A stretch of DNA of 12,258 nt from an uncultured Clostridium sp. (GTDB lineage Bacteria; Bacillota; Clostridia; TANB77; CAG-508), in contig USTA01000009.1 of assembly GCA_900557475.1 (NCBI GenBank), positions 1-12,258 on the forward strand, written 5' to 3'. A model generated the notes under the pieces. The model was not told the origin of the DNA. It worked only from the letters and a program-made list of their open reading frames with translations, and made no database searches. Shown here piece after piece: positions 1 to 11,225 of the stretch (its first letter is position 1; each line of letters starts with the position of its first letter). The position numbers were made by a program, and so were the translations under genes.

Positions 1-780
1 TATATCCAAAATCTTTTAATTTTGAAATATTGTTTTGAACTATTGAGTTGTTTGTTGATTTTCCTATAAATCCTGCTACTGCATTTGTTCCATTTATAGT
101 TGCACTACTGAAACTTTTTGTAACAGAGGAATTTGTTAATAATCCTATTAGCCCTCCAACATTAGTATTTCCTTGTACATTTCCTATTGAATATGAATTT
201 AAAATTATTGCTCTATTGTATGCTTCTCCAACTAATCCTCCTATTGCATTTCCTTTTGATGTTACCTTTCCATTTGCTGAGCTTTCTTGTATTTGACTTT
301 GTCCAACATATCCTGCAATCATACCAACTCTACTACTTCCAGATGTTATAGCATCTGTTATATGTGTATTTGTAACAAAAGAATTCGTCATACTTCCAAT
401 TAGTCCACCAATTTGTTTATTAGTTGATGAAACTTCTATTTTCTTTCCTATTACATTTTCAATTTCACTATATTCTGCTTTTCTTGCTAATGCTCCTACA
501 TCTGCTAAAGCATTAGTAATTTTGGTGTTTTCTAATTTTAAGTTTGAAATATGTGCAAGTTTTAATGAATCGAAAATTGGTAATGTATTTCCTGTTATTT
601 TATGTCCTTGTCCATCTAGTTTTCCTACAAAAGTTCCATCTATTATAGCCTTTTCTCCTGTTAGAGATGATAGATCTATGTCATTATCTAATACATAATA
701 TCCTGATGAATTTTCTGTTAGTTTTTCTTTAAATTCTTTTGCTGATTTTATATGCACTTTATTTGCTTCATTTTCACCAT
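1..780 (-). repeat. Second GLUG-repeat region, after the catalytic domain (partial)
   Basis: From residue ~2398 the same layout recurs: 'SGYYVLDNDIDLSS', 'GKLDGQGHKITGNTLPIFD', 'AHISNLKLENTKI', then GGLIGS, GMIAGY, GGLVGE, GGLIGL and AGFIGK. It parallels the region before the protease domain (NGNGHKIYNLSKPIFD against DGQGHKITGNTLPIFD), so it looks like a duplicated M26 N-terminal-type domain. It runs out of the window. Confidence 0.8.
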
Positions 781-3700
781 TTAATACCTCTTGTCTAAAA
801 TCATCTGTTATACATTTTACATAGTGATAATTTCTTCTTCTAACATTTGTACTATTTGTTACATTTCTGTCTCCATTTTGTGCATCTATTTTTAGAGCAT
901 TTATATATACTTTCATTAATTCATCAGCATTCACATATGTTACTTTATTCCAGCTATCTTCCATTAGTTTATAACGTTCTTGTTTAAATTTTTGCCATGT
1001 CATAGTATCATCATTTGTAACTTTTTTGATAGCATCTAAGTCATTTTTACTTTTTCCGCTATAATAAGTAACATATCCGCCGTCATATCCACCTATCCCA
1101 AGCATTTGCCAAGCAGTATATTTAAATCCGTATGTATGTGTTCTTCCATTTTCATTATATGGTTGATACCATCTTCTTATGTACATTCCTTCTGAACCAT
1201 AAGCTCCGTCTGCTGTTTGTGTTGTATTTCCTGTTACGCCTGGCTTAATAGTAATTTGATTGCTCCATAAGTCATTTACTGTTTGTAATTTCATTTTTTC
1301 AAATTCTTCTTTTGAAAGTGTTTTCCATCCTACTGTCGAATAATCTTTTGGTGCATTTGGATAATAAATTTGTACTGCTACTTTTGATTGTTCTTCTGGT
1401 GTTAATTCTAAAAACGCCTTTGCCTCTACATAATCTAAGAAGTCAATTGTTTCGAACATTCTTCTATAATAACTCTCAATTTTTTCTTTAGAGTTAATTC
1501 TTTCTGGCGATAGATTTGTTGTTACTAATTGGCCCTTGTTGTAATTATAACTTAAGTTAAAGTTTACATCACCATCTCCTGCTCCTTGAGATGTATTTCC
1601 ATCTGTATAGTCCTCTGATCCACTTATTCCGTCAGATGATGCTCCTCCACCTATTGGTCTAAATCCATTATTTTTAAAGAATAATCTAGCTGTTTGATTA
1701 TGCCCTGTTTCATGTGTCCAAGTAGAATAACTATCTAGTGCATGATTTACTACAAAATATATTCTTTGACTTCCTGCATATGCTCCTACTCCACCTATCA
1801 TAGACCATTCATTTAATATCTCATTAAAATTCTTGTGAAATAAATCATTGGCTTTTGCATTAAATTGCTCTCCTAATCCTGGTAAGAATCTAGTATCTAT
1901 AGCTATATCACATATATTGTTAAAATATTTGCTTTCTATAAATCCTGCTGCTGTTCCATAGAATGTCGCTACTTGGTTTGCAAAGTTTTGCATTTTATTT
2001 AGTAATGTTTGTTGTTGTGTTTTATTTGTAGGGTCTGTTATATATACTCTTTGTGATCCCACAAAAAATACTGTTGGTGTTGATATCATATATCCAGCAT
2101 TTTCTGGTAATGTTAAAAGTGCTAACATATATTCTGGTCTCTTTTTTAGTTGTGTCCAAGCTCTATAATCAATGTCGCTTTCTTCATGCCCCTTTGCTTG
2201 AACTTCTACTAATGGTCCTTTGAAGTTTTCTGTAAACCAATCATTTGGATTTTTATTATCTGTTAAAATTTTAATATTATATTCGATAAAGTCTCCTATT
2301 TGTGATATTCCAAATCTATGTGCTAAAGTATCTCTATAATATTGGTAATTTACATGGCTATTTTTCCATCTACTATTCCAAAAGTCTGATATTAAGTCAC
2401 TTATCTTTATATTTTCTCTGTATAATTCTCCCTTGAATAACATAATGTCTGAAAGGTTTGCTCCATCCATATTTATTCCATAGAAACGAGAATAATAATT
2501 ATATGCAAATAAAATTTTTTTCATTTCATTATTGTTAAGTTTATTTTTTACTATTGTGTTTAGTATTTCATTTTCCATTGTTATACTATATCCACTTGCA
2601 CTAGATAAATGTTTGTAAATAAAATTATCCGCATTTTCTTTTTTTCTTACTACTTCATTAAAATGTACTTTATATGCTGGATGACCTCTGTCAAGAGAAA
2701 GCATTCCTTGCAGGTCTTTTTCATATTCTAAACTTTGTATATAATTGCTTAATTCTCTTACAATTGTTGCATCTTGTTTTATAATATATTTATCAAAGTT
2801 ATAATCAACATTTAGTTCATTAATATTATAGTTTGCTATATTGCCATAAGTGTCTTTAAATTTCAAATTGTATTTTTTAGTTGTATTATCATCAAATACT
2901 ACTTTTATATAACTTAGGTTTTTATAATTTTCATTTGTAGTAGCAACTACTAGTTTTCCTTTATTATCATAAGCTAAAATTGTTTTAATTAATTCTTTAT
3001 TTAAGATATCATCTTCACTAATTTTTGTTCCATCTAATACTAAATATTTTGCATCATAAAATGGCATTAATTTATACAAGTTACTATATAAAATTTCCTT
3101 ATTTTTATTATATTCTGTCATTTTTTCTAGTCTTGCTTTGTATGGAATATATATTTCATTTTCTTGTTTTTGTTCTTCTTTTACATTGTTTGGATCTGCA
3201 TTATTTAATGTTGGTAGTTTGTCATAACTACATCCATTTAAATTCCATATGTTTTCATCAAACTCAGCCTCTTTTTTACAAAAATCTTCGTCAAAATCAT
3301 CTTTAGATATTTTCTTAATTTGCATACTGTTGTTGTCTTTTAATGTTGATTCTTCCATTGCATAGTTTTTAGTAAACATATTTAATGTAGCACTTGTTCC
3401 ATATAATTTATATGAATTTCTTCCTGTTGCAAAGCTTATATTTTGTTTTAAATTAATTTGACCAGCATCTTTTGCAAATCCTACGATACCACCTATTCCA
3501 TTTGGACCATCTGATGAATCTATATTTACTTTTGCTATACAATTTTTTATATAGCTTGTGTCTGGTACATATTTTTCTACAAGACCTGCTATTCCGCCCA
3601 TTTCTTTTCTTCCTGAAATTGAACCAGTTACATATGAATTTTCTATTGTAGATGTATTAATATATCCTGTAATTCCTCCAATTGCACTTACAAGCCAATT

Positions 3701-6700
3701 TTGTGGTCCTGTTATAGTAAGCCCTGTTACACTACATTCTTTAATTGTACTTTCTGTAAGTTTTCCAGTGATTCCACCATAGTATGAATATTTTACTGAT
3801 GTTGTAATCGTCATATTTTTTACATGAACATTGCTTATAGTAGTATTATTTCCCGTTTCATTTGAAAGAACTCCTCTTCCTGTAACATTATCTGTATTTG
3901 ATAAATGCACATTTTCTAATACTAAATCTTTAATATTAGCTCTTGATACATAGTCAAAGATTGGTTTAGATAAGTTATATATTTTGTGTCCATTTCCATT
4001 TAATGTTCCTGTAAATGTTATGTCTGCTCCTACCAAAGATCTGTGATCTCCTGTAATTGTTGATGCATCATAATCTTTGGTTAATTCATATGTTCCATTT
4101 GGATTTTCTTTCATTCTCTTTATCAAACTTGCTAGTGAATTATTTGTAGCTTTATTATTTTCTACTGTTCCATAATCTACTTCTAATTTATTCTGCTTCA
4201 TATTATTTTCATATTGCACTACATTTTCATATTCTAATTCAAGCTTTAATATATTGTTTTCTACTCTATATCCTTTTAATGGTGCATAGAAAGCTGGAAT
4301 ATCTTTCATTTCAACTTTTACCAAAAATTGAGACGCGTTTTCTAATTCGTAAGTATATAGGCTTGTTACCTCTTCTATTTTTTCCCCATTTTTTCTGTAT
4401 AGATATACATCTAATACATCTTTCATTTCTATCTTACGCGTTGTAAATTCCATTTCATCTTCTAGTAGAATTTGAGCTTTGTATAGATTATTTTCATCTG
4501 TTCCTAAATTATAATCTGCGACTACTTTAATATAGTAATATTCACTATCTGTTTTATCAAAGATTATTTCATTATTATTAGATTGTAAATCTTGAATCTT
4601 TATTTCTTTTTTGCTTTGGTCTGTAATAATAATTTTTCCACTAACTAAAGTTTGTTCATTATCAATTAAAGTAAAGCCTGCTTTTATTTTGTTTTTATTT
4701 TCTGTATCTTCATTATATGAAAAATCTTCTATTGTAGGTTTTTCCTTTAGAATTTCTATCTCTATTTTTGTTTCACTTGAAAGTTCTAATGCTACTCCAT
4801 TTGATAAAATCACTTTTTCTATTTTTATTTCTTGTTTTCCACTTACATCATATCCTACTAATGTAACTGTATACTTATCTGTACCTGTTTTTCTTGTTAC
4901 TTTATATGGATTTCCATTTATTATTACATCTTCTGGTATAAAGATAGATGCATTAGTACTTGAAAAACTAAAAATTATTTCTTCATTTTTATTAAAATAT
5001 ATTGTTTCTTTGTTTTTGTTTGCTGTTTTTAAATTACTTACTTGTAATTTGTAATCATGCACTAATATAATTGGTATCTCTTCTATTAGTTGGTCTTTTA
5101 CCTCATGGTCTTCTGCTTCTACAAATCTATTATATGTAGCAAGAACTTTTGCTGTATATAACACATCTTCTTCTACATAGTCAAAAGTAACAATTCCTTT
5201 TCCGTTTTCATCTTTTATTATTTCTTTTTCTTCTACAATTTGTTCTTTATTTAATAATTGTACTTTTCCACTTATGTAGCTATTGTCTGCATCATTTATT
5301 GTGAAATTTAAAGTAACTTCATGTTTTCCTAAGCTATCTTCTTGACTTACATCACTAATTGTTGGTATATCTTTTAAAACATTTACTTGTAATGTATTAG
5401 TAACACTTGCTTCTATACCGTCTTCAAATATTAATTTTGTAGTTTCTAAATTTAATAGTTTAGCTACACTTCCTACTGGAATTGTAATTTTATATTTTCC
5501 ATTAGATATCTTTATTGCTTTATAATTTACGCTATTTACTCGAATTTTTTCTATATTTTGCTTGCTATTTGTTTCTATTTCATATGTAATATTTATTGAT
5601 TCATTTTTTTCTACTTCTGTTTTATTTATTTCTGTTTGTTTTGTATTTGCATATATAATTGCTGATACTTCCTGCATTAATATTACTTTATTTTTATTTA
5701 TTTCTGTATCTGTCGCCCTATAACTTGCAATTACTTCTACTATATATTTTGTTGTTGCTTTTGTTTCTAATATTGTTTCTATTTTTCCATTTTTAATCTC
5801 ATCTTTGCTTAAATCTTTGCTTTGGATTATATTCTTGTTCTCGTCATAAAGCACAACTTTTGCACTTTCTATTGTTTTTCCTTGGTCTATAATATCAAAT
5901 TTAATTTTAATATTTTTTTCTAATATATTTTCCTGGGCTTCAAAATTACTTATGCTTGGTTTTTGTTCTTCTATTCTAACTTGGATACTATTGTTTTTAT
6001 CTAAAATAATTTCTTTTCCATTTCCAAGTTTTACTTTTTCTATTGTAATTAATTGATTTCCTAAACTTTCAATTCCATCTATTGTTGCAACAAAGTGATT
6101 ATCTTTTTCTTCTACTTGATATTCCTTCCCATTAATTGTTACAACAGTTGGTTTAAATGTATTGTTATTAGTCTCTTCAAATGCTGCATTTGTACTGTCA
6201 AAAGAAACTTGTATTGGCTCTTTTTTTATAAAAGTTGTATTTTCTACATCGTTCTTCAATGTTTTTAGATTAGATATTTTTAGTTTATAATCTAAATTTA
6301 CAGTAAATTCTTTTGAATAGAAAATAGTTTCTCCTTGATGCTCATTTCCTGTTAATTGCTCTGGAGCTAAATTATAATTTATTTCTATTTCAACTATATA
6401 AGTTTTACCTTCTTTCACAGGTATTTCTTGTTTGTTATTTCCTACTTTTATAGGAGTTTCTACTAAAATCTTATTTTCTGCCTTCTCATAAGCTGTAAAT
6501 TGGGCAGAAATAATACTATTTTCTGTATCTACTAATGAAAAACTGACATTGGCTTTTCCTTCAAATGTTTCTTCTAATTTATAAGATTTTTCATCCATAA
6601 ATGGTTTATCTTTTAAGACGCAAGCAGAAAAATTATAATCTATTTTTACTTCTTCATCTGTTGAAAGTATTACTTTTGAAAATTTGAATTCTTTTTTCTC

Positions 6701-7966
6701 CGCTATATTTCCTACATTTAATTTTACTTTATACTCATTTCCTATTTCATTTGTTTTTTCCGCATTATATTCTGCACCATTTATTATTACTTTTTTAATT
6801 GATACATCTTCATAGTTTATTTTTCCTATAAATGAGATTTCTATTTCTTGATTCTTACTTGGGTAATAATTTTCTGTGCTAATATTTTCTAGTTCTACTA
6901 CATATTCTCTTTTATTCTCTATCTTTTTAATTAAAATTGTTAAGTCTGTTACAGTTATTCTTTTATCATTATTTAAGTCTGCATTTTCTAATTTATCATC
7001 AGATAGTTTTTCAAGTCCTATTAGATGTTTTTCTACTAATTCAACATCTGTATAATTTATTAGCCCATCATCATTTACTTCTCCTTTTTGTACATTTTTC
7101 ATAACTACACCATATGTAGTTCCTGCTATTTGTACAGTTAAGAATATTGCTAAAATAATAGTCATTAGTTTTTTATTTTTATTTTTCATTTTTTTATCTA
7201 TTTTTTTATATTTTATGAAAAAATAGATTGTTATTAAAATTAATATTTCTATTGCAATAAAAATAAAGTTGTTTTCTCCTGTTTGAGGAATAGCTGTTGG
7301 TGGTACTTTATTATTTTCATTAGTACTTCCATTACCTTGTACATTATTGTTTTGATTTCCTCCACCTTGATTATTATTACTACCATTTTGATTTTCACCA
7401 TCTTGGCTACTACTATTATCATTCTGGTTATTATTATTATTTTCATTGTCGTTATTTTGTTCTTCATTGTTATCTATAAAATCTCTAATTACATTTATAT
7501 TTATATTAGATTTTTCTATTTCTATATCTTTTTTTCCCTCTGAAGTTGTTTGATTATTTATTCCTATAATTGTGTTCCCTGCACTTGCATTTTGCCTTAC
7601 TTTTAATTTTATCTCTAGGAACTCTTCTGCCACTTTTGTTCCGGCTTTTTTTATTATAACAAATTCATTGTTAGCTTTATTGTATTCTAAATTAGACCAA
7701 TAATTTTTAGTTTTAAAATTAGTTTCATCTATTTCAAAAAAGACATCTTTATCATAGTTAATTTGCCCTTTATAAGCATAAATCCCTTTTTCAATTTCTT
7801 TGAATTCATTTAATTTTAAATTAACTGTAATTTCTTCTTCATTTTCTGCTTTTATTTCATATTTATTAGCTGTTAGCTCTGTATTTAAGCTCACTCCTAA
7901 AACATTTGCCCCACTAAGCAATAGTATGAATACTATACTAGTTATAAATAATCTTTTTAGCTTCAT
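1..7966 (-). CDS. Giant M26-type (ZmpA/B/C, IgA1-protease-like) surface zinc metallopeptidase, C-terminus cut by window edge
   Basis: The frame is open from ATG at 7966 to position 1 (2655 codons seen; the stop lies outside). I re-checked the frame at residues 226, 296 and 2085 and at the left edge, and all agree. Order by residue: signal-like segment 1-25; cohesin-like domain ~28-160; Asn/Gln/Gly linker ~166-221; IPQTG 226-230; hydrophobic segments ~234-250 and ~266-280; dockerin ~295-350; four A/B repeat pairs ~353-1166; M26 N-terminal domain with GLUG motifs ~1168-1584; M26 catalytic domain ~1620-2390 with HETGH at 2085-2089; second GLUG domain ~2398 onward. The N-terminal sorting signal followed by two hydrophobic segments is the known streptococcal M26 layout and argues for one protein, not two. 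H2085 and H2089 should bind zinc and E2086 act as the base; the third ligand may be E2118 (GSEDYTDG). The protein is much longer than streptococcal M26 proteases (about 1900 residues). A plausible Shine-Dalgarno stretch (AAAGGGGATAGGA) precedes ATG. The substrate is unknown; IgA1 cleavage should not be assumed. Confidence 0.9.
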   Translation of the reverse strand, partial: MKLKRLFITSIVFILLLSGANVLGVSLNTELTANKYEIKAENEEEITVNLKLNEFKEIEKGIYAYKGQINYDKDVFFEIDETNFKTKNYWSNLEYNKANNEFVIIKKAGTKVAEEFLEIKLKVRQNASAGNTIIGINNQTTSEGKKDIEIEKSNININVIRDFIDNNEEQNNDNENNNNNQNDNSSSQDGENQNGSNNNQGGGNQNNNVQGNGSTNENNKVPPTAIPQTGENNFIFIAIEILILITIYFFIKYKKIDKKMKNKNKKLMTIILAIFLTVQIAGTTYGVVMKNVQKGEVNDDGLINYTDVELVEKHLIGLEKLSDDKLENADLNNDKRITVTDLTILIKKIENKREYVVELENISTENYYPSKNQEIEISFIGKINYEDVSIKKVIINGAEYNAEKTNEIGNEYKVKLNVGNIAEKKEFKFSKVILSTDEEVKIDYNFSACVLKDKPFMDEKSYKLEETFEGKANVSFSLVDTENSIISAQFTAYEKAENKILVETPIKVGNNKQEIPVKEGKTYIVEIEINYNLAPEQLTGNEHQGETIFYSKEFTVNLDYKLKISNLKTLKNDVENTTFIKKEPIQVSFDSTNAAFEETNNNTFKPTVVTINGKEYQVEEKDNHFVATIDGIESLGNQLITIEKVKLGNGKEIILDKNNSIQVRIEEQKPSISNFEAQENILEKNIKIKFDIIDQGKTIESAKVVLYDENKNIIQSKDLSKDEIKNGKIETILETKATTKYIVEVIASYRATDTEINKNKVILMQEVSAIIYANTKQTEINKTEVEKNESINITYEIETNSKQNIEKIRVNSVNYKAIKISNGKYKITIPVGSVAKLLNLETTKLIFEDGIEASVTNTLQVNVLKDIPTISDVSQEDSLGKHEVTLNFTINDADNSYISGKVQLLNKEQIVEEKEIIKDENGKGIVTFDYVEEDVLYTAKVLATYNRFVEAEDHEVKDQLIEEIPIILVHDYKLQVSNLKTANKNKETIYFNKNEEIIFSFSSTNASIFIPEDVIINGNPYKVTRKTGTDKYTVTLVGYDVSGKQEIKIEKVILSNGVALELSSETKIEIEILKEKPTIEDFSYNEDTENKNKIKAGFTLIDNEQTLVSGKIIITDQSKKEIKIQDLQSNNNEIIFDKTDSEYYYIKVVADYNLGTDENNLYKAQILLEDEMEFTTRKIEMKDVLDVYLYRKNGEKIEEVTSLYTYELENASQFLVKVEMKDIPAFYAPLKGYRVENNILKLELEYENVVQYENNMKQNKLEVDYGTVENNKATNNSLASLIKRMKENPNGTYELTKDYDASTITGDHRSLVGADITFTGTLNGNGHKIYNLSKPIFDYVSRANIKDLVLENVHLSNTDNVTGRGVLSNETGNNTTISNVHVKNMTITTSVKYSYYGGITGKLTESTIKECSVTGLTITGPQNWLVSAIGGITGYINTSTIENSYVTGSISGRKEMGGIAGLVEKYVPDTSYIKNCIAKVNIDSSDGPNGIGGIVGFAKDAGQINLKQNISFATGRNSYKLYGTSATLNMFTKNYAMEESTLKDNNSMQIKKISKDDFDEDFCKKEAEFDENIWNLNGCSYDKLPTLNNADPNNVKEEQKQENEIYIPYKARLEKMTEYNKNKEILYSNLYKLMPFYDAKYLVLDGTKISEDDILNKELIKTILAYDNKGKLVVATTNENYKNLSYIKVVFDDNTTKKYNLKFKDTYGNIANYNINELNVDYNFDKYIIKQDATIVRELSNYIQSLEYEKDLQGMLSLDRGHPAYKVHFNEVVRKKENADNFIYKHLSSASGYSITMENEILNTIVKNKLNNNEMKKILFAYNYYSRFYGINMDGANLSDIMLFKGELYRENIKISDLISDFWNSRWKNSHVNYQYYRDTLAHRFGISQIGDFIEYNIKILTDNKNPNDWFTENFKGPLVEVQAKGHEESDIDYRAWTQLKKRPEYMLALLTLPENAGYMISTPTVFFVGSQRVYITDPTNKTQQQTLLNKMQNFANQVATFYGTAAGFIESKYFNNICDIAIDTRFLPGLGEQFNAKANDLFHKNFNEILNEWSMIGGVGAYAGSQRIYFVVNHALDSYSTWTHETGHNQTARLFFKNNGFRPIGGGASSDGISGSEDYTDGNTSQGAGDGDVNFNLSYNYNKGQLVTTNLSPERINSKEKIESYYRRMFETIDFLDYVEAKAFLELTPEEQSKVAVQIYYPNAPKDYSTVGWKTLSKEEFEKMKLQTVNDLWSNQITIKPGVTGNTTQTADGAYGSEGMYIRRWYQPYNENGRTHTYGFKYTAWQMLGIGGYDGGYVTYYSGKSKNDLDAIKKVTNDDTMTWQKFKQERYKLMEDSWNKVTYVNADELMKVYINALKIDAQNGDRNVTNSTNVRRRNYHYVKCITDDFRQEVLNGENEANKVHIKSAKEFKEKLTENSSGYYVLDNDIDLSSLTGEKAIIDGTFVGKLDGQGHKITGNTLPIFDSLKLAHISNLKLENTKITNALADVGALARKAEYSEIENVIGKKIEVSSTNKQIGGLIGSMTNSFVTNTHITDAITSGSSRVGMIAGYVGQSQIQESSANGKVTSKGNAIGGLVGEAYNRAIILNSYSIGNVQGNTNVGGLIGLLTNSSVTKSFSSATINGTNAVAGFIGKSTNNSIVQNNISKLKDFGY
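3215..4200 (-). repeat. First GLUG-repeat region (M26 N-terminal domain)
   Basis: Residues ~1256-1584 have the M26_N layout: 'LTKDYDAS', 'GTLNGNGHKIYNLSKPIFD', 'ANIKDLVLENVHL', then GLUG-like motifs GGITG, GGITGY, GGIAGL and GGIVGF, each followed by strand-turn patterns such as 'STIENSYVTGSI'. Such repeats are expected to form a parallel beta-helix-like solenoid. Confidence 0.8.
4466..6910 (-). repeat. Four A/B pairs of beta-rich repeats in the M26 protein
   Basis: Residues ~353-1166 alternate two ~100-residue modules. Module A carries a pattern like 'YKL-ISNLKT ... ING-YKV ... IEKV-L-NG' and begins near residues 353, 557, 770 and 969. Module B opens with 'KPTI-NF' (or DIPTISD), has 'F-I-D' in the middle and ends '(I/V)KV-A-Y'; three copies begin near 668, 865 and 1073, and the first near 455. 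A2 and A4 are the most alike, sharing DYKL-(I/V)SNLKT. They probably form a stalk that holds the catalytic part away from the wall. Confidence 0.75.
6917..7084 (-). other. Type I dockerin domain of the M26 protein (residues ~295-350)
   Basis: Two calcium-binding half-repeats are readable: GEVNDDGLINYTD and, about 30 residues later, ADLNNDKRITVTD. Each keeps the D/E-x-N-x-D...D spacing, and a helix follows each (VELVEKHLIG; LTILIKKIE). This is the duplicated F-hand pattern of dockerins; only the first calcium residue of loop one is conservatively changed (E for D). Confidence 0.85.
7120..7291 (-). other. N-terminal IPQTG sorting signal plus membrane hairpin of the M26 protein
   Basis: IPQTG (residues 226-230) fits the LPxTG-type sortase motif with I at position 1. 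It is followed by a hydrophobic stretch (FIFIAIEILILITIYFF), a basic patch (KYKKIDKKMKNKNKK) and a second hydrophobic stretch (LMTIILAIFLTVQIAG). The frame is continuous, so the signal sits internally near the N-terminus, as in streptococcal M26 proteases. Met260 (codon ending at 7187) starts what alone would look like a signal peptide; a separate internal start cannot be excluded. Confidence 0.8.
7304..7471 (-). repeat. Low-complexity Asn/Gln/Gly/Ser/Glu linker of the M26 protein
   Basis: Residues ~166-221 are almost only N, Q, G, S, D and E, written with AAT, CAA and GGT codon runs. This is typical of a flexible wall-spanning linker just before a sortase signal. The runs could vary in length between strains. 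The plus-strand open frame over this stretch is only a shadow of the biased codons. Confidence 0.85.
7486..7885 (-). other. Cohesin-like domain of the M26 protein (residues ~28-160)
   Basis: Just after the signal-like segment is a beta-rich stretch with the cohesin pattern: an opening strand (ITVNLKL), a central GQINYDKDVF resembling the cohesin 'YDP..L' strand, and later strands FVIIKK, EFLEIKLKVR and a closing IEIEKSNI. Cohesins are beta-sandwiches that bind dockerins. The match is by eye at fold-pattern level, so a related Ig-like or carbohydrate-binding sandwich is possible. Confidence 0.55.
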
Positions 7967-8001
7967 TTTTATCCTATCCCCTTTCTTACTTTAGCTAAAA
8001 T

Positions 8002-8030
8002 ATTATAACATAATTTTTGATATTTTTCTA
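8002..8030 (-). promoter_or_regulatory. Extended -10 promoter for the M26 gene
   Basis: On the minus strand TATAAT (8002-8007) is preceded by TGT, giving an extended -10. The hexamer 17 bases upstream is TAGAAA (8025-8030), a 4/6 match to TTGACA. Transcription would start near 7995, leaving a leader of about 30 bases. Confidence 0.55.
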
Positions 8031-8034
8031 CATT

Positions 8035-8046
8035 TCTTTGCAAAGA
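8035..8046. promoter_or_regulatory. Perfect 12-bp palindrome, candidate operator
   Basis: TCTTTGCAAAGA is a perfect palindrome just upstream of the M26 -35 region. Its core TTTGCAAA recurs at 8104-8111 inside GTTTTGCAAAC, 67 bp away and still within the divergent region. In AT-rich DNA this could be chance. Confidence 0.3.
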
Positions 8047-8156
8047 TTTTTATCTTTTTTCTTACTTTTTATGGTAATTTTTCATACTTGTTTTTCTATC
8101 TGTTTTGCAAACTGTACTTAAACTATATGTTTTCAGGTCCTTTCCCTATCGCTCAT

Positions 8157-8185
8157 TTGACTAATTATGTAAATTATGTTATACT
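8157..8185 (+). promoter_or_regulatory. Sigma-A-like promoter of the 161-residue protein gene
   Basis: TTGACT (8157-8162), a 17-base spacer, then TATACT (8180-8185). A second TATACT follows directly at 8186-8191. This is near consensus and gives a leader of about 35 bases before the start codon. Confidence 0.75.
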
Positions 8186-8214
8186 TATACTGTAACTGTT
8201 AATTTTTACAATAT

Positions 8215-8220
8215 AGGAGG
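8215..8220 (+). promoter_or_regulatory. Strong ribosome binding site, AGGAGG
   Basis: Perfect AGGAGG with seven bases (ATAAAAG) before ATG at 8228; it fixes the start of the gene. Confidence 0.9.
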
Positions 8221-8227
8221 ATAAAAG

Positions 8228-8713
8228 ATGATAGAAACAACATTAGAAAGAGAAAAACGGGCCGAAGCTATTGGTATTTTAGAAAATATCGGGAAAACGC
8301 TAACATCAAAATTTTATTATTCATTCAGAGACGGCAATACCGCAAAAATAGTAGGCTGGGGATTTACTCCTAGCTCGAAACCAGTATATTATATCCAGTT
8401 TCCTACCGGAGACTTTGATATAATACCTGTTGCCAAACGTTACGGAGATAGCAAATTTATGTTCGAAGGTCCTTTAGAGTCTTCAGTTAAAATTTGCAAG
8501 CGGAGACAACTGGCGGAGGAACGTTCCCTTCTACAATACATGGGAAAGAGTGTATTGTTTCAGACAGTTTCTGCATTTAGACCTGGCGAAACTGCCGAAA
8601 TCATCGGCTGGGGATTTAGTGAAAACTATGAAATCCCTTTACTACTAATCAGGTTTAAAAATTCAGAATGTTATAGTGGGAATGCCCATGACATTTTGAA
8701 AATGTTGATTTAA
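8228..8713 (+). CDS. Unrecognised 161-residue protein built from two copies of one module
   Basis: I do not recognise the family. The protein is an internal duplication with a period of 84 residues. Each half has a charged helix-like lead (EREKRAEAIGILENIGK; KRRQLAEERSLLQYMGK), then the pattern FR-G-TA-I-GWGF (residues 33-46 and 117-130), then a hydrophobic strand (YYIQF; LLLIRF). The repeated strands and glycines suggest two small SH3- or Tudor-like barrels joined by helices; this is inference from pattern only. There is no signal peptide or membrane segment, so it is probably cytosolic. It has its own promoter, a perfect AGGAGG and a terminator, so it is monocistronic. Two of its lines count 38% and 45% G+C against 22-32% in neighbouring genes, and it uses codons such as CGG, GCC and ACC that are rare around it; this suggests acquisition from elsewhere. 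The gene is surely real; its function is open. Confidence 0.9.
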   Translation: MIETTLEREKRAEAIGILENIGKTLTSKFYYSFRDGNTAKIVGWGFTPSSKPVYYIQFPTGDFDIIPVAKRYGDSKFMFEGPLESSVKICKRRQLAEERSLLQYMGKSVLFQTVSAFRPGETAEIIGWGFSENYEIPLLLIRFKNSECYSGNAHDILKMLI

Positions 8714-8730
8714 CATTTTATCCATTTGAG

Positions 8731-8744
8731 CTCGCACTAGCGAG
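8731..8744 (+). repeat. Small perfect hairpin CTCGC-ACTA-GCGAG
   Basis: A 5-bp GC-rich stem with a 4-base loop lies between the stop codon at 8713 and the main terminator. It could help protect the 3' end of the transcript or be a minor pause hairpin. Confidence 0.4.
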
Positions 8745-8748
8745 TTTA

Positions 8749-8799
8749 CCCCCTATTACAGTCTTTAGGACCATAATAGGGGGATTTATTAATTTTTTA
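8749..8799 (+). terminator. Rho-independent terminator of the 161-residue protein gene
   Basis: CCCCCTATTA (8749-8758) pairs perfectly with TAATAGGGGG (8774-8783). Inside the loop GTC (8761-8763) can pair with GAC (8769-8771). A T-rich tail (ATTTATTAATTTTTTAT) follows. The opposite strand has no U-rich tail, so it works for the plus strand only. Confidence 0.8.
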
Positions 8800-8828
8800 T
8801 AATTTAAAACTACGCTTTTACAAAAAAT

Positions 8829-9053
8829 CTAAGAACTTATCTTTTTTTGTATGCCTAATCCATCTCCTACGCAAATTAATGTTTCAACTCTTTTATTTTT
8901 TCTTTTTTCGGCAATATTTACCTTTAAAGATTTTATAAAATTATCTCTTTCATCTTTTTGGTTTATAACTTTGGGTTCTTCTAACCTCTTTACTTTTTCT
9001 TCTTTAACAAATATATTTTTTATAAATATAATCATTTTTCTTATAATATTCAT
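8829..9053 (-). CDS. Small basic hypothetical protein, 74 residues
   Basis: The ATG at 9053 has a good ribosome site (GGGAAGGAG, about seven bases upstream) and overlaps, as ATGA, the stop of a short open frame upstream; this is usual for translationally coupled genes. The N-terminus (MNIIRKMIIFIKNIF) is hydrophobic with scattered lysines and could be a membrane-associating helix. A Lys/Glu-rich middle follows, ending in a less biased tail, VETLICVGDGLGIQKKISS, which looks like the conserved part. No family is recognised. It is probably the second gene of an operon with the transglutaminase-like gene. It ends in a TAG next to a T-rich stretch; I see no clear hairpin terminator. Confidence 0.6.
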   Translation of the reverse strand: MNIIRKMIIFIKNIFVKEEKVKRLEEPKVINQKDERDNFIKSLKVNIAEKRKNKRVETLICVGDGLGIQKKISS

Positions 9054-9154
9054 CTGTCTTGCTCCTTCCCTTCTACTATTTTACCAGAGCTTCTTGATAG
9101 TTCTGCTATTTCTTTAGTTTGTTTAGTAGCTTCCCATGGTCTAGCACCGATTAT
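9050..9154 (-). other. 34-codon open stretch, possible frameshifted C-terminus of the transglutaminase-like protein
   Basis: After the 694-residue frame stops at 9141, a different frame stays open from 9154 to TGA at 9050-9052. It has a protein-like composition: GARPWEATKQ, then KEIAELSRSSG, then GKEQDR. A +1 shift inside the repetitive AATAATAAATAATC run would join ...YDYDLIIN to IGARPWE..., giving a protein of about 725 residues whose stop overlaps the next start as ATGA. A true frameshift, a sequencing indel or a programmed shift all fit. Confidence 0.45.
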
Positions 9155-11225
9155 TTATTATTAAATCATAATCATAACATTCAAAACGTTTTGTAAACTC
9201 ATTTTGCTCTATTTCTATAAATTGTCCCTCACTTTTATCTGCAAAATAAAATTTATTTTCTATTTCATCTGAGTCAATATATGCAAACATAACGGGTCTT
9301 TTATCTTTGTCGTTTCTTTCATATACCCTATTTACAACACACTTATTAAATTTCAAATTATCATTATCAAGCAATATATCGCTTAATATTCTCATACTAG
9401 AATTTTGGCATGTTACAAATTCAGGGCAAAATTCTTTTAATAGTGAAAATTGTTTAGAAATATTTTCTTCTGGTTTATTTGCATAGATTTTATGCATCTC
9501 TTCTGATTTGTCCAATAAGTGAACTATTGGAAATTGACCGTCCTTATCTGCTAACCCCACACTAGAAAATAGTTTTCTTAAACTTTCGTCATCTAAATTT
9601 AAAGTAGCATCTTGTAATTTTTCATCATTTTTATGACACTCAAGGTCTATTCCATCAATATTGATGTCTTTTTTCCTTGCTTCTTCATAGCTCATACAAA
9701 AATTATCTGGTCTTCCGCCAAATCTATTTGTTGTTAAATTCCATGTTGGGTCTAAAATCGTATTTCCTTTTACCGTTTCTCCATTTGCAAGTGGAAGTTC
9801 AATATCTTTAATTTTTAAAAATGCATGTCCTTTTCCACCAATTATTTCACTTTCTATACCAATTCTATCAAGCATATATTGTTCTACTTTTGCTATTCCA
9901 TTGCAAACTCCATATCCAGAGCTTATTATTCTATATAAAGCTCTAGCATTTGCTCTATCAAACACTTCTGTATCAAAATCAGGACTATAACTTATTTTCT
10001 TTCCAATTACATTATCTATTATTGCTAGTTTTTGTGCTTTTGAATATTCTGGGTTTAACCCATCTATTACCGAGCTTATCCATTCTTCGGCTTCTTTATA
10101 TTCTTTCCCAGTTTGAACATACTGCACTCCATTATCTAATGAGCTAATAACTCCTAATTCTGGACATATACTGCAAAGATTTAGCAAATAATATTTTTCC
10201 TCTTCCGAAATATTTTCTGGATTTACTGATATTAAATTATCTAACCCCGAATAATCCTCTAAATTTCTTTGCAAATCTAAAATAACCTTTCCAGTATATT
10301 CTTCCGTTTTAATATCAAGTGCTGACTTATATTCTTCTGGTAGATTACTTTTATCAAGGCTATCCTTAACATTTTGTTTTAATGTAGCTAGTATTTCTCT
10401 TTTCGCACCTAAAGATAAATCAATTTCTTCTAACTTCAATATAAATTCCTTTTGCATGCTTGCATCTAGTTCTCTTACAACTTCATATGGGTGAATATCA
10501 TGTTCACTACAAAATTCTTTATATTGCACAAAAATGTCAATTATTTGACTAGTTTCAAATGATCTTATTATATTAATTTTATTGTTCTTAGAAAGATTTT
10601 TATCTTCTAACAACGTATTTAATTTACTTTCAGCATTAAGTGTATTTATAATATTTGTTTTTTCATAATCACTTAAATTATATATCTCTAGCATTTTTAA
10701 TTTAGAATCATCACTTTGCAACATTTTTATTAATTCAGTAACATCATAATCTTGAAAGTGTAATTTATTTATAACTAGGTCTTTGTCCATAAGAATGTCT
10801 TTCCTTGCATTCTCTCCTATGCTAGAAATAATATTTCTCAATTCGTATCCAGGAATATTTTTCTTCTCTAAGAAATCTTCATTACGTAATATTTTTTCTT
10901 TTGCATTATCACTCATTCCCTTAATAATCTCAACTATTTCATAACTTGAAAATCCTTCTGTAAGCTCTTCATTTCTTATCATTTGTAATTTTATATCTTC
11001 ATTCGAAACGTTTTTAATTACTTTTTGCCTTACCCTGTCACTACTTTTTATAAAATGTGGATATTCAAATATTCTCAATTTTTCTTCATCACTCAAAAAA
11101 TCATTTATTAAATTTACTAATTCTTTTGCATTAAAATCATATTTAATTAAAGTTTCTCTACTTGCAAATACACTAAACTTGTTATCTGTTTGTTCTAATA
11201 GCTTTCTTAAATCTTGAGCGTTCAT
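9141..11225 (-). CDS. Helical-repeat protein with a transglutaminase-like (Cys-His-Asp) domain
   Basis: The 694-residue frame starts at ATG 11225 behind GAGGAGGAG. The N-terminal third holds helical repeats of about 33 residues: units start near residues 29, 62, 95, 127, 160 and 187, most with Tyr first, then 'II-x-L/M...K' and a final Leu (for example YEIVEIIKGMSDNAKEKIL, YELRNIISSIGENARKDIL). A helical middle follows. The C-terminal half has a papain-like transglutaminase fold signature: C441 in SGYGVCNGIAKVEQ, H467 in GGKGHAFLKI and D492 in ILDPTWN, with spacing normal for the family. This superfamily includes cross-linking enzymes, proteases and peptide N-glycanases, so the reaction is not predictable. 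I see no signal peptide or membrane segment. The repeats suggest protein binding that presents a partner to the catalytic site. It heads a probable operon with the 74-residue gene, and its last residues may be altered by a frameshift. Confidence 0.88.
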   Translation of the reverse strand: MNAQDLRKLLEQTDNKFSVFASRETLIKYDFNAKELVNLINDFLSDEEKLRIFEYPHFIKSSDRVRQKVIKNVSNEDIKLQMIRNEELTEGFSSYEIVEIIKGMSDNAKEKILRNEDFLEKKNIPGYELRNIISSIGENARKDILMDKDLVINKLHFQDYDVTELIKMLQSDDSKLKMLEIYNLSDYEKTNIINTLNAESKLNTLLEDKNLSKNNKINIIRSFETSQIIDIFVQYKEFCSEHDIHPYEVVRELDASMQKEFILKLEEIDLSLGAKREILATLKQNVKDSLDKSNLPEEYKSALDIKTEEYTGKVILDLQRNLEDYSGLDNLISVNPENISEEEKYYLLNLCSICPELGVISSLDNGVQYVQTGKEYKEAEEWISSVIDGLNPEYSKAQKLAIIDNVIGKKISYSPDFDTEVFDRANARALYRIISSGYGVCNGIAKVEQYMLDRIGIESEIIGGKGHAFLKIKDIELPLANGETVKGNTILDPTWNLTTNRFGGRPDNFCMSYEEARKKDINIDGIDLECHKNDEKLQDATLNLDDESLRKLFSSVGLADKDGQFPIVHLLDKSEEMHKIYANKPEENISKQFSLLKEFCPEFVTCQNSSMRILSDILLDNDNLKFNKCVVNRVYERNDKDKRPVMFAYIDSDEIENKFYFADKSEGQFIEIEQNEFTKRFECYDYDLIINNRC

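Follow-up and report, generated by a model that had tools for sequence, protein, structure and literature searches.

Cohesin and dockerin domains on either side of a sortase-type motif and two hydrophobic segments in an M26-type protease of an uncultured Clostridium

The window analyzed here, 12,258 nucleotides of contig USTA01000009.1 from an uncultured Clostridium sp., encodes on its minus strand an M26-type protease (2655 amino acids, 2..7966, ending at the window edge) whose front end contains both a cohesin and a dockerin. Within one reading frame, the order is cohesin, sortase-type motif, two hydrophobic segments, dockerin and M26 protease. The occurrence of the cohesin–dockerin pair in one protein is confirmed and is more than chance, because both domains pass curated cut-offs, solved cohesins rank first in a fold search, and aligned front ends of related loci match too. 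On balance, we favor a model in which a wall-linked cohesin would catch its own dockerin after two cuts of the precursor, so that the released protease would be held at the cell surface. In the minus-strand numbering used below, residues 1–350 run from position 7966 down to 6917, with the frame open throughout; the translated front end reads MKLKRL...IPQTG...KGEVNDDG...ITVTDL. The closest database relative (P0002) is 97% identical to the window protein over the front-end residues and has 3102 amino acids, so that the window protein lacks about 450 residues at its C-terminal side. The initial annotation had described a single continuous frame with signal segment, cohesin-like domain, linker, IPQTG, two hydrophobic segments and dockerin, and all of these were found in that order, beginning with an N-terminal signal segment at residues 1–24 (7895..7966; helix 2–18 in the AlphaFold2 model).

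The cohesin occupies residues 40–159 (7490..7849; modeled strands 26–160). A Pfam scan of residues 1–350 matched Cohesin (PF00963) at 40–159 with an E-value of 1.3e-6 and 29.1 bits against a cut-off of 24.1, and the first 170 residues scanned alone gave 7e-7 and 30 bits; the domain was not reported by a Pfam scan of the whole 2655-residue frame. AlphaFold2 modeled it at a predicted local distance difference test (pLDDT) score of 94–98, and solved cohesins were the top matches of the modeled domain in the fold search, upholding the cohesin-like assignment made at the outset. A single-sequence search of the domain against solved structures returned no matches, and a 35-row cohesin profile returned weak ones, with an adenylyltransferase best (E 0.048) and cohesins from 0.053 upward. 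The better conserved cohesin strands are those of the 8-3-6-5 sheet (by our own strand mapping), which we take to be the dockerin-binding face. The dockerin, also anticipated in the initial annotation, is of type I and spans residues 295–349 (6920..7084), as assigned by Pfam, a solved-structure match and the AlphaFold2 model. Dockerin_1 (PF00404) was found there in the scan of residues 1–350 with an E-value of 9.6e-11 and 42.2 bits (cut-off 22.9); the score ranged from 38.6 to 43.8 bits depending on the piece scanned, with 43.8 in a shorter piece. The domain has two calcium-loop repeats, and its sequence matches solved dockerins, best 4fl4_A at 1.4e-7.

Between the two domains lie an Asn-rich linker (residues 163–225, 7292..7480; pLDDT below 50 at 176–184 and 186–220), the sortase-type motif IPQTG (226–230, 7277..7291), a first hydrophobic segment (233–255, 7202..7270; from the AlphaFold2 model and the sequence), a loop with a charge of +9/−1, and a second hydrophobic segment (268–286, 7109..7165) that ends in TTYG. 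This end lies 56 residues past Gly230; a passage of PMC9637739 places a cut in the streptococcal enzymes 56 residues downstream of their LPXTG-type motif. The remainder of the frame contains Peptidase_M26_N (PF05342; residues 1144–1383, 3818..4537), Peptidase_M26_C (PF07580; 95.4 bits against a cut-off of 22 for the better of two stretches, 2024..2842) and the zinc-protease motif HETGH (residues 2085–2089, 1700..1714), which together identify it as a member of Peptidase M26. The best NCBIfam match of the window protein is ZmpB, at 180.5 bits against a cut-off of 3000. No G5 domain was found at E ≤ 1 in the 2655 residues of the window protein, or at E ≤ 0.01 in the full-length relative P0006.

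The domain pair is conserved among relatives. A search with residues 1–355 yielded 29 related proteins (two of them short), and our own profiles, to which 11 of the 29 had supplied rows, found both cohesin and dockerin in every one. HExxH is present in 27 and a sortase-type motif between the domains in 20, and a segment over the hydropathy threshold after the dockerin was found in none of the 29. Among 46 aligned front ends (the window and 45 loci), Pfam at E ≤ 0.01 reported Dockerin_1 in all and Cohesin in 34; two hydrophobic segments are present in every one, and a small-x-small motif follows the second in 45 by a loose test. Because Pfam misses cohesins in long proteins and leaves 12 of the 46 front ends short of E 0.01, the genome cohesin counts given below are lower bounds; the cohesin of locus L060, for one, was missed in genome G017.

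A genome scan recovered 78 loci, 38 of which encode both domains in one frame. In 25 others the architecture is split: a cohesin gene (gene A, 305–326 amino acids) is followed by a same-strand gene with the same class of dockerin. The remainder comprise 10 loci with an M26-type dockerin only, several at contig ends, and 5 with unrelated dockerins. In 24 of the 25 split loci, the second gene begins with a hydrophobic segment that leads straight into the dockerin and usually ends in IYA; in the exception, L043, the frame starts at the dockerin itself. HExxH occurs near residue 1850–1920 in 16 of the 25 second genes, and the 9 second genes without it have frames of fewer than 1810 residues. Pfam reported M26 in the second gene of L033, the one such gene scanned, and on the full frames of three fused loci it reported M26_N in L001 and the dockerin only in L025 and L060. 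Gene A carries its own, different C-terminal dockerin in addition to the cohesin, and the cohesin half in split lineages looks like an adaptor. The gene at L033:10001-10933 and 24 similar genes have the layout of a cohesin-X-dockerin adaptor, and the model of the L033 protein resembles C. thermocellum cohesin-X-dockerin chains. In L070, a further cohesin gene sits between the cohesin gene and the dockerin gene. L070:8447-11225 carries a tandem array of three cohesin or cohesin-like genes, followed by a dockerin gene with HExxH. LPKAG occurs in two of the three, one of which was scanned and fell just under the Pfam cut-offs for both cohesin and anchor. The L070 array has the appearance of a small wall-anchored protease scaffold.

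Since the same hydrophobic segment opens the separate dockerin gene in split loci, the second hydrophobic segment of the window protein is likely a signal peptide. The initial annotation had envisaged cleavage by sortase alone; the proposed sortase cut is retained here, and the 24 split loci with such a segment point to a second one. In the resulting model, sortase would cut the precursor at IPQT/G and link the cohesin to the wall, a cut by signal peptidase after residue 286 would probably free the dockerin end together with the protease, and the anchored cohesin would then recapture the dockerin and retain the protease on the cell surface. We consider this two-cut route moderately likely for the window's own protein, and mutual binding of the two domains rather more so. 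In relatives that lack the sortase motif, the first hydrophobic segment would instead retain the cohesin in the membrane, where it would serve the same role.

The one-chain AlphaFold2 model of the 350-residue front end has a predicted template modeling (pTM) score of 0.71. For a chain of this length, computed pTM values hardly exceed 0.46 with the cohesin alone and come to about 0.61 with the dockerin added and about 0.76 with the hairpin as well, whereas the best computed case without the dockerin, in which the cohesin, signal segment and hairpin are all perfectly fixed, reaches 0.68. Because 0.71 lies above this value, the pTM arithmetic suggests that cohesin and dockerin are docked in the model. 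As a control, gene A of a split locus, with the same class of cohesin and another dockerin, gave a pTM of 0.45, for which 0.48 was expected undocked and 0.85 docked.

Class-specific profiles, run on 49 genomes and restricted to strong rows (60 of 71 for cohesin, 64 of 87 for dockerin), show coupling between the cohesin class and the dockerin class. A class cohesin is encoded in the same frame as 32 of the 64 class dockerins and no more than 2.5 kb ahead, on the same strand, of another 25. The remaining 7 fit neither case; two of these seven, in G009 and G420, are close to contig ends. Conversely, 57 of 60 class cohesins are paired and the remaining 3 are in short or contig-edge frames, two of which (in G413 and G419) hold a partial dockerin among the dropped rows. 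As the genomes were chosen for holding such loci, these figures measure coupling and not frequency. When 27 genomes were searched with Pfam, a single cohesin and a single dockerin were detected in G016, both of them parts of this protein, and one cohesin and three dockerins in each of G001 and G012. The proposal of the initial annotation that the two halves re-join is thus the best-supported reading, through the 29 of 29 relatives, the neighboring-gene pairs, the pTM of 0.71 versus 0.45 and G016, although we infer the binding and the cuts.

Several observations weigh against recapture of a sortase-anchored half. The reading of pTM is an indirect measure of docking, taken without coordinates or pair errors, and the gene A control had a shallower alignment (25 rows versus 46) and lower pLDDT. 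Covariation was computed over the window and 93 deduplicated pairs of 114 (effective number of sequences, 42). The inter-domain signal of 0.247, compared with at most 0.226 in 20 shuffled pairings, can be explained by shared ancestry alone, and only 7 of the top 40 pairs fall on the expected face, versus 13.6 expected; because the top pairs lie at variable positions off this face, covariation is either uninformative or counter-evidence. Five class dockerins (in G411, G024 and G020, and two in G418) have no class cohesin nearby, and each of these four genomes has a pair elsewhere. In the window protein, IPQTG, a hydrophobic segment and a basic loop are all present, but the LPXTG_anchor model (TIGR01167) scores 14.9 bits, under its cut-off of 15.9. 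Moreover, a sortase-type motif is found in only 17 of the 46 aligned front ends and is missing from 29 by our pattern, whose strictness excludes variants like the SPNTG of P0026. Loss of the motif through loss of sortase was rejected, as sortase matches were found in 38 of 38 genomes searched; the combination of missing motifs and retained sortases indicates that sortase is not essential to the architecture. Front ends without the motif still keep the cohesin–dockerin pair.

The Pfam searches also found 3–9 cohesins in 19 of the 27 genomes, so that other binding partners exist there. In a first alternative, the cohesin could be a port for other dockerins and the dockerin a plug for another scaffold, with no mutual binding, as in the adaptor scaffoldins of cellulosomes. 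We regard this as unlikely, given that G016 offers no other Pfam partner, that the class cohesin and class dockerin travel together, and that a docked-like pTM is seen in the fused form and not in gene A. In genomes rich in cohesins and dockerins, the pair may take other partners too.

A second alternative dispenses with cleavage: the hydrophobic segments would form a membrane hairpin, and contact between cohesin and dockerin would act as a permanent internal clamp, giving rigidity to the protease at its outer base. The pTM of 0.71 also requires the hairpin to be placed together with the domains, and two distant loci fit such an arrangement. L162 and L163 encode M26 proteases by Pfam, with cohesins of 40.4 and 31.9 bits, respectively, followed by two hydrophobic segments and a divergent dockerin-like part (23.7 bits in L163, not reported by Pfam in L162); the LPXTG motif is absent from both, and no clear small-x-small site was seen by eye after the second segment. 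In such distant relatives the pair would, in our favored reading too, clamp both outer ends of an uncut hairpin. For the architecture at large we find this rather improbable, as 45 of 46 front ends have the small-x-small motif by the loose test and the second segment stands at the start of a gene of its own in 24 of 25 split loci. Finally, Met260 could start a second protein, making cohesin and dockerin–protease separate products of overlapping or internal initiation, as the split gene pairs of relatives might suggest, yet we judged an internal start unlikely and give this reading very little weight, since by eye a Shine-Dalgarno-like sequence (AAGGGG, 7978..7983) precedes Met1 and none precedes Met260, and the frame is single and open in 38 loci and 29 proteins. 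The sequence immediately preceding the start codon (Met1) is AAGGGGATAGG.

The architecture can be compared with several known systems. In the available passages, the IgA1 proteases and Zmp enzymes (M26) of streptococci and Gemella share with the window protein an M26 protease, an N-terminal LPXTG-type motif and nearby membrane segments (PMC2225412). They carry at least one G5 domain (PMC9637739), of which the window protein has no match, and the passages mention neither cohesin nor dockerin for them, whereas in the window protein this pair flanks the hydrophobic segments. According to PMC7695701, sortase A attaches the streptococcal enzymes covalently to the cell surface, unlike the anchoring proposed here, a further point against our model. 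With the cellulosomal type I systems of C. thermocellum and others, the window protein shares the cohesin fold and the two-repeat calcium-loop dockerin. In cellulosomes, scaffoldin and enzyme are encoded by separate genes and one scaffold serves many enzymes; the window protein instead has both halves of the clasp in one precursor of one protease. The best structural matches to its cohesin are the C. perfringens cohesin modules 2vo8, 2jh2 and 2w1n, of which 2vo8 and 2w1n belong to glycoside hydrolases by their PDB titles. The C. thermocellum cohesin-X-dockerin chains 3kcp and 4fl4 share their layout with gene A of the split loci and differ from the window protein, in which a membrane region separates the two domains. 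Cohesin, dockerin and M26 were not found together in the open full-text literature (most subscription papers lie outside its scope), nor was this domain order seen in titles or abstract openings among the matches listed from the open literature; dockerin and IgA1 protease co-occurred in a single paper there, a review of surface display.

Cohesin–dockerin pairs are familiar as the joints by which different proteins assemble. With both halves on one chain, flanking a likely cut region, the pair would give a non-covalent surface anchor with a built-in one-to-one stoichiometry. A clasp would also explain the cell retention of a protease with its sortase motif at the wrong terminus. The pneumococcal N-terminal domain matters for retention. 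More tentatively, and with slightly less than even confidence, we propose that the front end is a self-docking display cassette, in which clasp receptor and ligand flank the cut site and provide one anchor per enzyme; it would be widespread at the front of M26 proteases, across two orders or more, and able to carry other cargo, and its fission into neighboring genes may have seeded a small scaffold system. The front-end profile matched 234 of 385 sampled genomes of one order at E ≤ 0.001, with many matches partial, and the window front end itself was matched at E ≤ 1e-20 in 44 of 385 genomes of another. In L159:209-3058, the same series of cohesin, LPNTG, two hydrophobic segments and dockerin precedes a BNR/Sortilin-type propeller in place of M26, which indicates that the front end can carry other cargo.

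Larger proteins with HETLH and a front end of the same kind are encoded by L164 (4468 amino acids) and L165 (6363 amino acids; Pfam scan covering residues 1–4940 only). In L164, Pfam reported both the cohesin and the dockerin, and M26 was not reported. Another protein, at L049:9509-13297, combines a transglutaminase core (22.9 bits, cut-off 23) with immunoglobulin-like domains and a cohesin, and has a dockerin at its C terminus. The cohesin gene of L050 is preceded by a gene (3282-9425) for a 2048-amino acid protein in which NPCBM and F5/8 type C domains are combined with a C-terminal dockerin. In the window itself, a plus-strand frame of 161 amino acids (8228-8713), divergent from the protease gene, has no Pfam match. 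A minus-strand gene at 9141-11225 encodes a protein of 694 amino acids, likewise without a Pfam match, in which a transglutaminase-like stretch (GVCNGIAK...GHAFLKI...LDPTWN) can be recognized by eye.

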